Assembly: GCF_022637555.1 (NCBI RefSeq)
Contig: NZ_CP093342.1
Coordinates: 1,302,001 to 1,366,000 of the forward strand
DNA from: Microbacterium sp. H1-D42
GTDB lineage: Bacteria; Actinomycetota; Actinomycetes; Actinomycetales; Microbacteriaceae
Length of the DNA: 64,000 nt
Direction of reading: 5' to 3'
Shown here: piece after piece, positions 1 to 14,019 of the stretch
Numbering within the stretch: position 1 is the stretch's first letter
Layout: every line of letters starts with the position of its first letter
The notes under the pieces: generated by a model
The model's input: the letters and a program-made list of their open reading frames with translations, nothing else
Told to the model about the DNA's origin: nothing
Database searches by the model: none
Program-made: the position numbers and the translations under genes

Positions 1-4370
<4,370 letters not shown>

Positions 4371-4594: not shown

Positions 4595-4605
4595 TTCTTC
4601 TAAGT

Positions 4606-4637
4606 AAAATGGCCACCCAAAGCTGGGTGGCCATTTT
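4606..4637 (+). terminator. rRNA operon terminator hairpin
   Basis: A perfect 14-bp inverted repeat, aaaatggccaccca and tgggtggccatttt, with loop aagc at 4620-4623. It starts 12 nt after the predicted end of 5S rRNA. The A-rich 5' arm gives a TTTT run at the 3' end, so it fits an intrinsic terminator for the rRNA operon. Confidence 0.85.
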
Positions 4638-4666
4638 GCGTTTTACAGCATCAACAGGGAGTCAGA

Positions 4667-7048
4667 ATGTCAGATGAGCAGCGAGACCGCCGGAACGACG
4701 GCGACGGCGCGCACAAGGGACGTTCGGGCTCCGACCGCAAGCCGCGCTACAGTGACTCTTCGTCGCGTGGCCAGCGACGCGACGACAACCAGCGCCCCTC
4801 GGGTGACCGCTCTGGTGAACGGCGTCCATACGGGGACCGGAACCAGGGTGGCGAGCGCCGTTCGTACGGTGACCGCAGCCAGTCCGGTGACCGCCGGCCA
4901 TACGGCGATCGGAACCAGGGCGGCGAGCGTCGCTCCTATGGCGACCGCCCGCAGGGTGATCGTAACCAGTCTGGCGAGCGTCGCCCCTATGGTGACCGTA
5001 GCCAGGGTGGCGAGCGTCGCTCCTATGGTGACCGTCCCCAGGGCGATCGTCCGTACCGTGGTGACCGCCCGCAGGACGACCGCAACCAGTCCAGTGAGCG
5101 TCGCCCGTATGGTGACCGCAACCAGTCCGGTGACCGCCGGCCATACGGCGATCGGAACCAGGGTGGTGACCGTCGCTCCTATGGTGACCGTAGCCAGGGT
5201 GGCGAGCGTCGCTCCTATGGTGACCGTCCGCAGGGCGATCGTCCGCACCGTGGTGACCGCCCGCAGGGCGACCGCAACCAGTCCGGTGAGCGTCGCCCGT
5301 ATGGCGACCGCAATCAGGGTGGCGAGCGTCGCTCCTATGGTGACCGTCCGCAGGGCGATCGTCCGCACCGTGGTGACCGCCCGCAGGGCGACCGCAACCA
5401 GTCCGGTGAGCGTCGCCCGTATGGCGACCGCAATCAGGGTGGCGAGCGTCGCTCCTATGGTGACCGCCCGCAGGGTGATCGCCAGCAGTCTGGTGACCGT
5501 CGCCCTTATGGTGATCGGAACCAGGGTGGCGAGCGTCGTCCCTATGGTGACCGCCCGCAGGGTGATCGCCAGCAGTCTGGTGACCGTCGCCCTTATGGTG
5601 ATCGGAACCAGGGTGGCGAGCGTCGCCCCTATGGTGACCGCCCGCAAGGCGACCGCAACCAGTCCGGTGACCGTCGTCCCTATGGCGATCGTCCGCAGGG
5701 CGAACGTCGCCCGTACAACGACCGGAACCAGGGTGGAGAACGTCGTCCCTATGGCGATCGTCCGCAGGGCGATCGTGCCCAGGGCGAGCGTCGCCCCTAC
5801 AACGACCGGAACCAGGGTGGCGAGCGCCGCTCGTACGGTGACCGTCCCCAGGGGGACCGCCCGTACCGCGGAGACCGCCCGGCCGGTGACCGGAATCACT
5901 CTGGTGAGCGTCGTCCGTACAACGACCGCAACCAGGGCGGAGAGCGCCGCTCCTACGGCGACCGTCCGCAGGGTGAGCGTCGCTCCTATGGTGACCGCGA
6001 TCAGGGTGGCGAGCGTCGCTCCTACGGCGACCGCAACCGGGACGAGCGCGGTGGCGGCGAGCGGCCGTCCTACCGGGATCGCCCGCGTGGCGGCGTCGAG
6101 CGCACGTTCAACGAGTTCGCACCGGTGCGTGAGCGCGTCCCTGAGCCGCCGCTGCCCGAGGAGATCACCGCACGTGACCTTCACCCAGCCGCACGCAACG
6201 AGCTGAAGACCCTCAGCAAGGAGAACGCCGAGCAGGTGGCTCGTCACCTCGCCATGGTCGCGCAGCTCATCGACGACGAGCCCGAACGAGCTCACGAGCA
6301 CGCCTTGGCTGCGTCTCGTCGTGCCGGCCGTGTCGCTGTCGTGCGTGAGACGCTCGCGATCACTGCCTACGCCGTCGAGGACTTCTCGCTGGCGCTGCGG
6401 GAGCTGCGCACATACCGCCGCATCTCCGGCAAGGACGACCAGATCGCACTGATCGTGGACAGCGAGCGCGGCGTCGGCCGCCCGGATCGCGCCCTCGAGG
6501 AGGGCCGTACTGTCGATCGCGCAGCGCTCGAGCCCGCCGTTCGTGTGGCACTGGCGATCGCCATGTCCGGTGCACGCCTCGACCGAGGCGAGACCGAGCT
6601 GGCTCTCGGCGAGCTCGAGATCCCGGAGCTCGACCCCGATCGCGCCTTCGAGTGGAGCCCCGCGCTGTTCGCGGCTCGCTCCGCGGTGCTCGACGACCTC
6701 GGCCGCGCCGAGGAAGCCGCATTCTGGGCTCAGCGTGCTGATGTCGCGGCATCTGCTCTCGGCCTCGACGGTCAGTTCGATGAGATCTACGTCGAAGACG
6801 GGCTCGTCGAGGACTACGAGACGTACGATGACGAGTCTGATGACGCGGACGCTGACGCGGACGCTGACGCTGACGCTGACGACGAGTCTGACCCTGACGA
6901 CGCTGACGATGACGACGCCGACGACGCTGACGCCGACAACGCCGACGCTGACGACGCCGACAACTCCGACGCCACTGACAACGCCGACGACTCCGAGCAG
7001 GACCAGAACCCTCAGAACTCTCAGGACACCGAGGACACCGAGCGCTGA
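4667..7048 (+). CDS. repeat-rich disordered protein with TPR-like core and acidic tail
   Basis: A 793-aa protein with three parts. Residues about 43-470 are a low-complexity repeat built from units such as GDRNQGGERRSYGDRPQ, rich in Gly, Arg, Asp, Gln and Tyr with nearly balanced charge. Residues about 479-712 are helical and TPR-like and form the only part that looks like a conserved globular domain. Residues about 717-793 are almost all Asp and Ala with Glu and Ser. The ATG at 4667 has an aggga ribosome site 6 nt upstream. The stop overlaps the start of the HAD gene (TGATG), so it heads the tlyA-recN operon. By position it matches the Rv1691 family of actinobacteria. The molecular role is unknown; the Arg/Tyr/Gly repeat suggests RNA binding or condensate formation, which is inference only. 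Confidence 0.8.
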   Translation: MSDEQRDRRNDGDGAHKGRSGSDRKPRYSDSSSRGQRRDDNQRPSGDRSGERRPYGDRNQGGERRSYGDRSQSGDRRPYGDRNQGGERRSYGDRPQGDRNQSGERRPYGDRSQGGERRSYGDRPQGDRPYRGDRPQDDRNQSSERRPYGDRNQSGDRRPYGDRNQGGDRRSYGDRSQGGERRSYGDRPQGDRPHRGDRPQGDRNQSGERRPYGDRNQGGERRSYGDRPQGDRPHRGDRPQGDRNQSGERRPYGDRNQGGERRSYGDRPQGDRQQSGDRRPYGDRNQGGERRPYGDRPQGDRQQSGDRRPYGDRNQGGERRPYGDRPQGDRNQSGDRRPYGDRPQGERRPYNDRNQGGERRPYGDRPQGDRAQGERRPYNDRNQGGERRSYGDRPQGDRPYRGDRPAGDRNHSGERRPYNDRNQGGERRSYGDRPQGERRSYGDRDQGGERRSYGDRNRDERGGGERPSYRDRPRGGVERTFNEFAPVRERVPEPPLPEEITARDLHPAARNELKTLSKENAEQVARHLAMVAQLIDDEPERAHEHALAASRRAGRVAVVRETLAITAYAVEDFSLALRELRTYRRISGKDDQIALIVDSERGVGRPDRALEEGRTVDRAALEPAVRVALAIAMSGARLDRGETELALGELEIPELDPDRAFEWSPALFAARSAVLDDLGRAEEAAFWAQRADVAASALGLDGQFDEIYVEDGLVEDYETYDDESDDADADADADADADDESDPDDADDDDADDADADNADADDADNSDATDNADDSEQDQNPQNSQDTEDTER
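5195..5466 (+). repeat. 120-bp perfect tandem duplication
   Basis: Bases 5221-5340 and 5341-5460 are identical across 120 nt (40 codons). Identity continues on both sides, so the periodic stretch runs from about 5195 to 5466, roughly 2.3 copies with no mismatch. Identity at silent sites indicates a very recent duplication. Confidence 0.93.
5461..5646 (+). repeat. 87-bp near-perfect tandem duplication
   Basis: Units start at 5461 and 5548, and a partial third starts at 5635. The period is 87 nt (29 codons, GDRPQGDRQQ followed by SGDRRPYGDR and NQGGERRPY). By eye the first two units differ at a single silent base. This is a different unit from the adjacent 120-bp repeat. Confidence 0.88.
6838..6985 (+). 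repeat. Asp-Ala codon microsatellite (acidic tail)
   Basis: Runs of GAC/GAT alternating with GCG/GCT/GCC encode an Asp-Ala tail. Hexanucleotide periodicity (gacgct, gacgcg) is clear at 6844-6885 and recurs to about 6985. It is likely to change length by replication slippage without breaking the frame. Confidence 0.8.
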
Positions 7049-8085
7049 TGGCACTGTTCCGCCGCGCGAAGCAGGCATCCACCCCGCTGACTGACCGCGA
7101 CGCTCTGCTCGCCGACCTCGACGGCGTCGTGTATGCGGGCCCCAGTGCACTGCCGTACGCGATCGAGAACCTCAACCGCGCCGGCGAGTCGATGCGGTTG
7201 GGCTACATCACCAACAACGCTTCGCGCACTGATGCCGATGTCGCCGCACACCTCACGGACCTCGGTCTGAGCGTTGCGCCCGATGACGTCGTCACCAGCC
7301 CGCAGGCGGCGATGCGACTGCTCACCACCATGGTGCCGGCTCCAGCGACGATCCTGATCGTCGGGGGAGAGGGGCTCGTCGTCGAGGCGGAGAAGGCCGG
7401 CTACACGGTCACCCGCAGCGCAGAGGATTCCCCCGCAGCTGTCGTGCAGGGCTTCGCACCCGAAGTCGCGTGGACGGACCTCGCCGAGGCCGCCTTCGCG
7501 CTGAAGCTGCCGGAGGAAGAGGGCGGGATTCCCTGGATCTCGACCAACACCGACTGGACGATCCCTCGCGAGCGCGGCGTCGCCCCCGGAAACGGCACGC
7601 TCGTCTCCGCGGTGCACACCGCGATCGGGCGGCTCTCCACCGTGGCCGGCAAGCCCGAGAAGCCGATCTTCGAAGAGGCCGTGGCCCGCTTCGAAGCGCA
7701 GCGCCCGCTGTTCCTCGGCGATCGGCTCGACACCGATATCGCCGGCTCGGTCAGCGCCGGCATCGATTCGGCGCTGGTGCTGACCGGCATCGACCGCCCG
7801 AAGCACGTGCTGGCCGCCCCACAGGGCTCGCGTCCCGACTACATCCTCGCCGACCTGCGCGACCTGCATGAGTCGTATCCGGTCACGTCCGAGCAGGACG
7901 GCGTGTTCACGGTGAACGGCGCGTCGGTGCAGGTGGTGGATGCTGACGTGCAGATCCTCGCGGAGGGCGACGCCCAGATCGATCTGCTCCGCGCCGGTGC
8001 CGCCGCGATCTGGGCGACCGGCCGGGCGATCTACGCCTTTCGGGTTCCCGAGCTGCTGTACGCAGACCCGTTCCACCGGCCCTGA
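7048..8085 (+). CDS. HAD-superfamily (subfamily IIA) phosphatase
   Basis: A 345-aa cytoplasmic phosphatase. The N-terminal motif LLADLDGVVY carries the HAD nucleophile and general acid aspartates near residue 24. GYITNNAS near residue 51 is motif II, and FLGDRLDTDIAGS near residues 222-234 is the motif IV metal site. A large C2-type cap lies between motifs II and IV, as in NagD-like enzymes. The Mycobacterium gene in this position (Rv1692) is reported as a glycerol-3-phosphate phosphatase, so that activity is a reasonable guess here. The start ATG overlaps the upstream stop by one base. The last 80 residues, after the HAD core, are not recognised. Confidence 0.88.
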   Translation: MALFRRAKQASTPLTDRDALLADLDGVVYAGPSALPYAIENLNRAGESMRLGYITNNASRTDADVAAHLTDLGLSVAPDDVVTSPQAAMRLLTTMVPAPATILIVGGEGLVVEAEKAGYTVTRSAEDSPAAVVQGFAPEVAWTDLAEAAFALKLPEEEGGIPWISTNTDWTIPRERGVAPGNGTLVSAVHTAIGRLSTVAGKPEKPIFEEAVARFEAQRPLFLGDRLDTDIAGSVSAGIDSALVLTGIDRPKHVLAAPQGSRPDYILADLRDLHESYPVTSEQDGVFTVNGASVQVVDADVQILAEGDAQIDLLRAGAAAIWATGRAIYAFRVPELLYADPFHRP

Positions 8086-8163: not shown

Positions 8164-8340
8164 ATGGAGCATCCGCGAGACGAGCCGACTGACGCGCTCT
8201 GGAGTCGCCTGCGTCTGATCGAGGGCCAGCCGCTCGCCGATCGGGCCGAAGCGTACGGCTCACTGCACGATGAACTGATGAAGCGTCTCGAGAGCGCCCC
8301 GCGCGGCGATGCCCGCGACGCGGCCCCTGGTCCGCGATGA
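8164..8340 (+). CDS. small conserved protein upstream of tlyA (Rv1693-like)
   Basis: A 58-aa soluble protein starting MEHPRDEPTD with a central amphipathic helix (LWSRLRLIEG through LHDELMKRLE). Its stop overlaps the tlyA start (ATGA). A protein of the same size occupies this place in Mycobacterium (Rv1693), which supports a real gene. The 8164 ATG is preferred because it sits exactly seven bases after the TACAGT -10 hexamer; an in-frame ATG at 8134 lies upstream of that promoter. Function unknown. Confidence 0.7.
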   Translation: MEHPRDEPTDALWSRLRLIEGQPLADRAEAYGSLHDELMKRLESAPRGDARDAAPGPR

Positions 8341-9134
8341 CCCGGCTCGATGCGGCCCTCGCGGCGCGTGGCCTCGCTCGGTCGCGCACCCACGCCGCGA
8401 TCCTGATCGCCGACGGACTCGTGAGCGTCGACGGCCGTGCGGTCATCAAGCCCTCCACCCCGGTCACAGACGCCACCGTGATCGCGGTCGACGGCGGAGA
8501 CCACTACGTCAGCCGCGGCGCCCACAAGCTGATCGCCGCACTCGACGGGTTCGGCGTGCCGGTCGAAGGGCGCCTCGCGCTCGACATGGGCGCGTCCACC
8601 GGCGGCTTCACCCAGGTGCTGCTGGAGCGCGGCGCGCGCCGCGTGCTCGCAGTCGACGTCGGTCACGATCAGCTGGCCCCGCAACTGGCATCCGACCCCG
8701 CCGTCGTCGCGGTCGAAGGATTCAACGTCCGCCACATGACGGCGCGCACGCTGTCCGAGGCCACCGGCGAGGCCACAAGGCCCGACCTCGTCGTCGGCGA
8801 CCTGTCATTCATCTCGCTCGCGCTCGTCCTGCCTGCCGTCGCCGAGACCGCCGCACCGCACTCCGACATCCTGCTGCTGGTCAAGCCGCAGTTCGAGGTG
8901 GGCCGCACCGCCGTCAAGGGCGGTCTGGTCACCAGCCCCGTCGCACGCATCGATGCCGTCGAACGCATCCTGTGGCGCGCCCACGACTCCGGACTGGGCA
9001 CCCTCGGCATCCTGCCGTCACCGCTGCTCGGCACGCACGGCAACGCCGAGTACCTGGTGCACCTGGCACCCGGCCGTGGCACGGATCCGTCAGAATGGAC
9101 GGACCAGATCGCACACGTGGCAGGAGGACGATGA
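8337..9134 (+). CDS. tlyA: TlyA, 16S/23S rRNA cytidine-2'-O-methyltransferase
   Basis: 265 aa. Residues 1-65 form an S4 RNA-binding domain (RLDAALAARGLARSRTHA, then GLVSVDGRAV). The Rossmann methyltransferase domain follows, with SAM motif I LDMGASTGGFTQ near residues 82-93, DVGHDQL at motif II and LLLVKPQFEVGR near residue 180. TlyA methylates 16S C1409 and 23S C1920, and its loss gives capreomycin/viomycin resistance in mycobacteria. The start overlaps the small protein's stop, and its own stop overlaps the nadK start, so translation is coupled. Confidence 0.95.
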   Translation: MTRLDAALAARGLARSRTHAAILIADGLVSVDGRAVIKPSTPVTDATVIAVDGGDHYVSRGAHKLIAALDGFGVPVEGRLALDMGASTGGFTQVLLERGARRVLAVDVGHDQLAPQLASDPAVVAVEGFNVRHMTARTLSEATGEATRPDLVVGDLSFISLALVLPAVAETAAPHSDILLLVKPQFEVGRTAVKGGLVTSPVARIDAVERILWRAHDSGLGTLGILPSPLLGTHGNAEYLVHLAPGRGTDPSEWTDQIAHVAGGR

Positions 9135-10032
9135 ACGAGCGCCGCATCCTGGTCGTCGCCCACGCCCAGCGGGAGGACACCGTCGCCGCGGCTCTGCGCG
9201 TCATCGACGCGCTGCGCGACGCCGGAGCGACCCCCGTGCTCGCGAGCCCCGACCGTGCAGAACTGGCCGAGGTCGACCCGCGCTTCGCCGACGTCGCGCT
9301 GCTTGGTCACGACGTCGCCGAAGACGACCTCGAGCTGGCCATCGTGCTCGGCGGCGACGGCACGATCCTGCGTGCCGCCGAACTGGTGCGAGAGTCCGGC
9401 GCCCCGGTGCTCGGCATCAACATGGGCCATGTCGGGTTCCTCGCCGAGATCGACCGGGATGACATGGATGCCGCCGTGCGCCGCGTCATCGACCGCGACT
9501 ACGAGGTCGAGGAGCGTCTCGCGCTGTCTGTGCGCGTGAAGGATGCCGATGGCTCGGTCGTCTACGAGACATGGGCGCTCAACGAGGCCACGGTCGAGAA
9601 GGCCAGTCGTGAGCGGATGATCGAGGTGGTCATCGAGATCGATGGCCGTCCGCTGTCGAGCTTCGGCTGCGATGGCATGGTCGTGTCCACTCCCACCGGG
9701 TCCACGGCCTACAACTTCTCTGCCGGCGGTCCGGTGATCTGGCCCACCGTCGAGGCGATCGCCGTGGTGCCGCTGTCGGCGCACGCGCTGTTCGCGAAGC
9801 CTCTGGTGGTGGGACCTGAGGCGTCCGTCGCCATCGAGATGCTCGATCGCACCGACGGCATGGGCATCCTGTGGTGCGACGGGCGCCGCTCGCACGACCT
9901 GCCCCGCGGAGCCCGCGTCGTCGTGCGCCGCTCCGCACAGCCCGTGCGGCTCGCACGACTGCATCCCACCGCCTTCACCAACCGTCTGGTGCGCAAGTTC
10001 CAACTGCCCGTCGCCGGCTGGCGGGGCGCCTC

Positions 10033-10036
<4 letters not shown>
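9131..10036 (+). CDS. nadK: NAD kinase
   Basis: A 301-aa ATP- or polyphosphate-dependent NAD kinase that makes NADP. The diagnostic GGDGT motif is at residues 74-78, NEATVEK follows in the middle, and the glycine-rich CDGMVVSTPTGSTAY motif is near residues 178-192. The reading frame stays open far upstream, but ATG 9131 is chosen because it overlaps the tlyA stop (ATGA) and has caggagg upstream. The recN start overlaps its stop in the same way. Confidence 0.95.

Positions 10037-14019
<3,983 letters not shown>

Follow-up and report, generated by a model that had tools for sequence, protein, structure and literature searches.

A plus-strand open reading frame (ORF) of 793 amino acids (aa) in Microbacterium sp. 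H1-D42 lies directly behind an rRNA operon, and its relatives hold the same place in most of the loci that we examined, in several classes of the phylum. This linkage is the key new fact of our analysis, which covered 64,000 nucleotides (nt) of contig NZ_CP093342.1 (hereafter the window; positions are counted from its first letter). The ORF (4667-7048, with the ATG at 4667 and the stop codon at 7046-7048) encodes a protein in which a long arginine-rich arm is joined to a core with the predicted fold of a tetratricopeptide repeat (TPR) solenoid and to an acidic tail; we refer to it as the TPR gene. An earlier reading, made from the letters alone (the sequence-only reading), had proposed both this ORF and its place between an rRNA operon and the tlyA-recN genes, and both were borne out: 23S and 5S genes lie upstream, and genes for a HAD-IIA hydrolase, a TlyA-family methyltransferase, NAD kinase and RecN lie downstream. 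To our knowledge, few protein genes have stayed behind an rRNA operon throughout several classes of one phylum. The accessible part of the literature, mostly outside subscription journals, yielded no description of a conserved gene behind an rRNA operon and no assigned function for the TPR gene.

Linkage to rRNA operons

Linkage was measured in 224 fetched loci, the window not counted, 196 of which have an ORF uncut by a contig end. Identical cores were merged before counting, giving 131 distinct loci in Microbacteriaceae, 38 in other Actinomycetes and 19 in other classes. A locus was called near an rRNA operon if, on the same strand, a 5S gene ended at most 600 bp upstream or, where no 5S gene matched, a 23S gene ended at most 800 bp upstream. 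By this measure, 116 of the 126 decidable loci in Microbacteriaceae are near an operon (10 are not, and 5 are undecidable in that the contig starts less than 300 bp upstream), as are 32 of 36 in other Actinomycetes (4 not, 2 undecidable) and 12 of 19 in other classes (7 not). Within Microbacterium the linkage holds in all 22 decidable loci (34 loci in total, with 11 cut and 1 undecidable; 7 are shared with the set of 224). The median distance from the 5S gene to the start codon is 109, 103 and 105 bp in the three groups; starts were chosen by rule, as the first ATG or GTG with a ribosome-binding-like site, so that single distances and arm lengths may be inexact. Being linked by descent, the loci are not independent, and those referred to by name are the 80 best matches of a list limited in length.

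As a control, we located all 50 5S genes of 20 genomes, each assembled in one or two contigs. These were hand-picked (the window's own genome, 17 in which the locus had already been seen, including three known exceptions, and G207 and G269) and therefore are not a blind sample. The TPR gene stands directly behind one rRNA operon in 17 of the 20; the exceptions are G189, with no adjoining operon, G327, at 4.9 kb, and G224, at 2.6 kb, where the 5S gene has no 23S match. We examined the 3 kb that follow each of 29 further 5S genes, four more being left out; one stretch held G269's own copy of the TPR gene, and none of the other 28 (from 32 other 5S genes in the 20 genomes) held a member of the family. 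No gene recurred between families behind these other 5S genes, except for ORFs that start inside the 5S gene and one pair, L144 and L149, which lie behind other rRNA operons of G269 and G200 and match each other. On the far side of the operon, 17 of the 20 control genomes (not G325, G131 or G269) have tyrS upstream in the same orientation, and mycobacterial rrnB, too, lies downstream of tyrS (PMC10218544 and PMC6089878).

The linkage extends to duplicated operons. Both rRNA operons of G207 carry a copy of the TPR gene (L152 and L153), and G372, of the same genus, likewise has two linked copies (L154 and L155). The repeated units, 6.8 kb in G207 and at least 6.5 kb in G372 (where the end of the stretch cuts it), are 99.1% and 99.7% identical and comprise the operon and the TPR gene, ending 9 bp past its stop codon and excluding the HAD gene; thus, duplication of the operon can take the gene along. 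When 11 stretches were searched with in-frame queries, the order core-HAD-TlyA-NAD kinase-RecN was complete in L152, L156, L159 and L160, and partial in L154, L158 and L162; the other four showed the core only. Two arrangements are worth recording. In L158 (G224), the 5S gene that has no 23S match stands between tyrS and the TPR gene, which looks as though the deletion of an rRNA operon had spared its 5S gene. In G145:C1:1084224-1092457, the interval between tyrS and the TPR gene contains a pair of 5S genes separated by about 8 kb, apparently from tandem rRNA operons.

Between the 5S gene and the TPR gene, a hairpin with a T-run was found in 116 of 122 loci in Microbacteriaceae, 29 of 32 in other Actinomycetes and 8 of 10 in other classes. 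Hairpin scores of at least 9 numbered 115, 27 and 8 in these groups, versus 30, 8 and 3 in one shuffle each, a control that keeps base composition only. Such a hairpin is present in 142 Actinomycetes loci, and in 19 of them at most 25 nt follow the T-run; the window leaves about 22 nt before the ATG, and its hairpin folds at -29.4 kcal/mol (z -4.71). In 82 loci with gaps of at least 45 nt, a -10-like TANNNT element follows the terminator in 44, versus 28.7 +- 3.6 when shuffled (total count, 50 versus 44.5 +- 6.2 expected; often TAGGCT or TACGCT). The gene therefore probably has its own promoter in many lineages, and we rejected read-through as the sole mode of expression in general. Where there is no room for a promoter, as in the window, the spacing suggests that read-through, or a promoter overlapping the terminator, is likely.

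Architecture of the protein and its relatives

The core, residues 477 to 714, is predicted to form a TPR solenoid of paired helices, in agreement with the helical core of the sequence-only reading. Among 59 family members, 42 match the motif TPR_2 and 38 match TPR_12 (E <= 0.1); taken alone, the core from the window matches no TPR sequence motif. The whole protein matched no Pfam or NCBIfam family at E <= 1, RRM domains included; a core-plus-tail piece gave one match below the cut-off, to RelE/StbE (E 0.15), and a sequence search for solved relatives gave nothing beyond weak matches (E 0.039 at best). Identity of the core to MamA and other TPR proteins is 9%, and many TPR chains tie, so no function follows from this likeness. 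A search with the window core, its own genome counted throughout, found the family in all 59 genomes of the genus that were searched (59 of 59), in Microbacteriaceae at large (117 of 120 genomes, 77 of 78 genera) and across the class (278 of 296 genomes, 98 of 105 genera); with the A1 profile, it was found in 67 of 159 genomes drawn from the phylum. Most genomes have one match and a few have two.

The arm, residues 1 to 476, is of low complexity (entropy 3.06 bits) and consists mainly of R (25%), G (19%), D (13%), Q (9%), P (8%), S (7%) and Y (7%). Its net charge of +34, or +0.07 per residue, replaces the near-neutral charge first supposed. The tail, residues 715 to 793, is 43% Asp with a net charge of -40, close to the highly acidic tail of about 75 residues that had been described, and arm and tail together give 38 overlapping tandem-repeat rows. 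Relative to the charge-hydropathy line, arm (-0.64) and tail (-0.91) fall on the disordered side and the core (+0.08) does not, as the sequence-only reading would have it. Its comparison of the arm with eukaryotic RG-rich proteins is loose in the RGG sense: 47 GDR and 54 DR dominate, with 8 RG/GR and 2 RGG in the 476 residues, and the clustered RGG/RG motifs of eukaryotic RNA-binding proteins are absent. Eukaryotic RG/RGG proteins such as nucleolin and GAR1 have an Arg/Gly-rich disordered arm, and nucleolin also has acidic tracts. The window protein shares such an arm with them; unlike them, it is a GDR polyampholyte and has a TPR core in place of RRM domains.

The repeat itself is confined to this locus in its genome; a search gave 3 plus-strand matches and 1 minus-strand match, all at the TPR locus, and no further copies at E <= 0.01. 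Between repeat units within the window, the ratio of nonsynonymous to synonymous change (pN/pS) is 0.29 for 27 units and 0.45 for 44 shorter ones, values biased somewhat downward because 3 of every 12 residues are set by the RR.Y anchor, which depresses pN.

Absence of the repeat from close relatives, which the sequence-only reading would have taken as a sign of neutral expansion, is not what the relatives show. An arm is present in all 23 uncut Microbacterium loci, and among uncut loci it reaches at least 40 aa in 135 of 139 Microbacteriaceae, 34 of 38 other Actinomycetes and 8 of 19 in other classes (at least 100 aa in 120, 26 and 4). Every such arm in the first two groups (135 and 34) carries a net positive charge and plots on the disordered side of the charge-hydropathy line. 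Repeat units differ among relatives (GERRSYGDRPQ, APRREGGYNRD, RKPYEKRDGD and others), composition is similar (in the 135 Microbacteriaceae arms, on average R 23, G 18, D 13 and P 10%, with 3.6% hydrophobic residues), and arm length across Microbacteriaceae runs from under 40 to over 400 aa. In loci taken for Mycobacterium by gene order, a short R-rich arm of 43-80 aa and a tail of 9-16 aa stand against 476 and 79 aa in the window; the idea that only the core is conserved there is not borne out in that form. In 64 Microbacteriaceae loci, cut ORFs counted, the linker motif LWTRDGxPARGDRDA separates arm and core (e.g., L004, L012 and L026); the pattern LWT..G.PAR occurs in none of the other groups' loci, nor in the window. 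A putative tail motif, (D/E)ET(I/M/V)xV, matched only 2 loci and was dropped.

Arm and tail vary together. The tail has a net charge of -5 or lower in 136 of 139 Microbacteriaceae, 22 of 38 other Actinomycetes and 1 of 19 in other classes, and the median arm and tail measure 269 and 75 aa, 121 and 20 aa, and 29 and 3 aa in the three groups. Arm length correlates with tail length in Microbacteriaceae (rho 0.59) and other Actinomycetes (0.71), and their charges are opposed (-0.56 and -0.62); in other classes the values are 0.24 (not significant) and 0.00. Tree contrasts on 177 Actinomycetes cores, with branches under 0.02 dropped, give r 0.49 for length and -0.41 for charge (signs alike in 103 of 154 and 43 of 143 contrasts). 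Tyrosine behaves otherwise: it makes up at least 3% of only 55 of the 135 Microbacteriaceae arms and 4 of the 34 other Actinomycetes arms, and its median is 6% in the 23 Microbacterium arms. By these compositions the arm tyrosines are lineage-specific, and we rejected tyrosine-based condensation as a general function of the family.

The same type of repeat is found on other proteins. With residues 51-470 as the query and candidates preselected by shared words and by length (about 436-1388 aa), 694 of 7998 scored proteins matched at E <= 1e-8, and the 120 listed were tallied by hand from precomputed Pfam accessions. Nine of the 120 belong to the TPR family by hidden Markov model, 110 have domains that we read as RNA- or ribosome-type, and one (P0293) has no assigned domain. 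The 110 include IF-2 (39), SpoU/RlmB-type methyltransferases (29), S4/PF00849 pseudouridine synthases (25), DEAD-box helicases (11), S1/CvfB-like (2), RsmB-like (1) and RsmI-like (1) proteins, and two PF10672 methyltransferases, one named as a 23S rRNA enzyme and one hypothetical. Their GDRPYG-type repeats (P0241-P0357) resemble the arm, their folded domains are unrelated to the TPR core, and their source names come from several bacterial groups.

Database annotation can cut the arm off. Entries of 291-303 aa from M. esteraromaticum (P0124, for instance, at 303 aa) begin inside the linker and lack the arm, and the DNA of M. esteraromaticum GN8-5 (L187), the one species checked at this level, encodes a 321-aa arm in frame. 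Several Microbacterium entries (P0123-P0145, about 280-303 aa) also start within the linker, at MRER.... Among 120 core relatives listed, 69 have fewer than 60 aa before the ARNELKT motif, 56 of these Met-initiated; only proteins of about 130-415 aa were taken, which favors short entries. Many listed database orthologues from Microbacterium, the same proteins as the TPR family, are named "primosomal protein," a name that we found unsupported, as the whole protein matched no primosome family domain at E <= 1. Truncated or misnamed entries of this kind may explain why the protein was overlooked.

The locus and its neighbors

The features of the locus are collected in Table 1. The ATG of the HAD-IIA hydrolase gene shares one base with the TPR gene stop codon, and the TlyA-family gene did not reach the equivalog model NF049952. 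A minus-strand ORF of 826 aa (4670-7150) spans the whole TPR gene and is probably a by-product, or mirror, of the GC-rich codon pattern.

Table 1. Features of the TPR gene and its surroundings, in window coordinates
Feature	Position	Strand	Basis or remark
23S rRNA gene, operon directly upstream	1264..4370	+	Rfam RF02541, 2821.6 bits
5S rRNA gene, ends 72 bp ahead of start codon	4478..4594	+	Rfam RF00001, 107.3 bits
Terminator-like hairpin	4604..4644	+	perfect 16-bp stem 4604-4639, T-run 4634-4644
Likely ribosome-binding site AGGGAG	4656..4661	+	read from sequence
Disordered arm, residues 1-476, net +34	4667..6094	+	(G)(D/E)RR(P/S)YGDR-type repeats
TPR solenoid core (predicted fold), residues 477-714	6095..6808	+	
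Acidic tail, residues 715-793, net -40	6809..7045	+	
HAD-IIA hydrolase	7048..8085	+	PF13344, PF13242, TIGR01460 above cut-off
TlyA-family rRNA (cytidine-2'-O)-methyltransferase	8337..9134	+	TIGR00478, 189.2 bits (cut-off 185.8)
NAD kinase	9131..10036	+	NF002892
RecN	10033..11721	+	TIGR00634

What the TPR protein may do

The reading that we favor is that the protein is an actinobacterial TPR adaptor, in most cases single-copy, whose gene is tied to an rRNA operon and which works in rRNA or ribosome production; we judge the case for this proposal to be evenly poised. The sequence-only reading had guessed at a link to RNA or the ribosome, and in outline the guess stands, given the linkage in several classes and a repeat type found on rRNA-modifying and translation proteins. 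In this model, the arm would engage rRNA or preribosomal particles through many weak contacts, and the TPR core would serve as the docking site of a partner protein, perhaps RNA polymerase or an enzyme of assembly or modification. The acidic tail would rival RNA for binding to the arm, which would keep that binding reversible. The place behind the operon and its terminator would tie gene dose to rRNA synthesis, and where a lineage has no space for a promoter, read-through might tie transcription of the gene to rRNA synthesis as well. One can speculate further that this is a ribosome biogenesis factor coupled to its own substrate, expressed from the 3' flank of the operon partly by terminator read-through, whose arm would fold or gather nascent rRNA into a nucleolus-like body that the tail would dissolve; we think this scheme very unlikely.

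Published leads come from mycobacteria. MSMEG_3754, given as the Rv1691 orthologue and as a TPR protein, is on a high-confidence list of 214 proteins obtained from M. smegmatis together with RNA polymerase after formaldehyde crosslinking; carrying a FLAG tag, it yielded no DNA, and the authors allow for association with RNA (PMC7092591). Rv1691 is listed as part of one operon with lprJ, Rv1692, Rv1693, tlyA, ppnK and recN (PMC3072309). The position ahead of HAD, tlyA, NAD kinase and recN genes recurs in the window and in the four loci with complete gene order, and Rv1691 and MSMEG_3754 are annotated as TPR proteins; the likeness to the window protein is one of gene order and annotation.

Several observations weigh against a role in rRNA or ribosome production. 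The strongest are three. The linkage could be inherited synteny, with the flanks of rRNA operons persisting by descent; the TPR gene is kept in G189 with no rRNA operon beside it, so adjacency is not required; and members in other classes mostly lack a long arm or an acidic tail and show no covariation of the two, so these parts are not needed for the ancestral role. In addition, G325 looks rearranged at its rRNA operon; other genes recur behind other rRNA operons within a genus or genome (four locus pairs, two of them within a genus); tree contrasts over all branches give r 0.00 for length and -0.17 for charge (signs alike in 106 of 163 and 50 of 155); the similarity of the repeats to those of other proteins is most likely convergent and not homology; and RNA binding is something that we infer. 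The -10-like elements in long gaps point the same way, as does MSMEG_3754's entry in a ClpC1 interactome table (PMC10433963). Could the gene, then, be a passenger of a good expression site, encoding a TPR adaptor that serves proteostasis or acts with the HAD hydrolase or NAD kinase, and whose place reflects growth-coupled expression or inherited synteny? Its persistence in G189, its own promoter-like elements in many lineages and the ClpC1 listing would all fit, and tyrS, for which we know of no special rRNA role, is an equally stable same-strand neighbor. Against this stand the repeat type common to rRNA and translation proteins, the recovery of the mycobacterial protein with RNA polymerase, and the fact that, apart from the pair L144/L149, no other gene recurs behind rRNA operons across families. 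We regard a passenger as possible, if on balance improbable.

The recovery with RNA polymerase, together with the position of the gene at the 3' end of the operon, also raises the question of whether the protein rides the polymerase on rRNA operons, in antitermination or cotranscriptional folding, and does not act on finished subunits. The recovery comes from a single study by formaldehyde affinity purification-mass spectrometry, and no DNA came with the tagged protein, although its authors note that the amount bound may have been too small to see; a transcription-side factor seems to us distinctly unlikely. With its 31 Tyr and 119 Arg, the arm of the window protein might instead scaffold an RNA-containing condensate, a notion compatible with the other readings and in keeping with the tyrosine content of Microbacterium arms. 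The scarcity of tyrosine in most other arms and the near absence of RGG speak against it, and on composition such a scaffold would be unlikely. Finally, the arm might be debris of replication slippage on a conserved TPR protein, as its tandem arrays with unit turnover and its wide range of lengths could suggest. Its presence in nearly all uncut Microbacteriaceae loci, always positive and of similar composition despite differing units, its covariation with the tail and the pN/pS of 0.29 between units (lowered, as noted, by the anchor) make a neutral expansion highly improbable.

If the TPR protein does act on rRNA, the actinobacteria would have a biogenesis factor that is missing from standard models, and the protein would open a way to study the role of arginine-rich disordered arms in bacteria.

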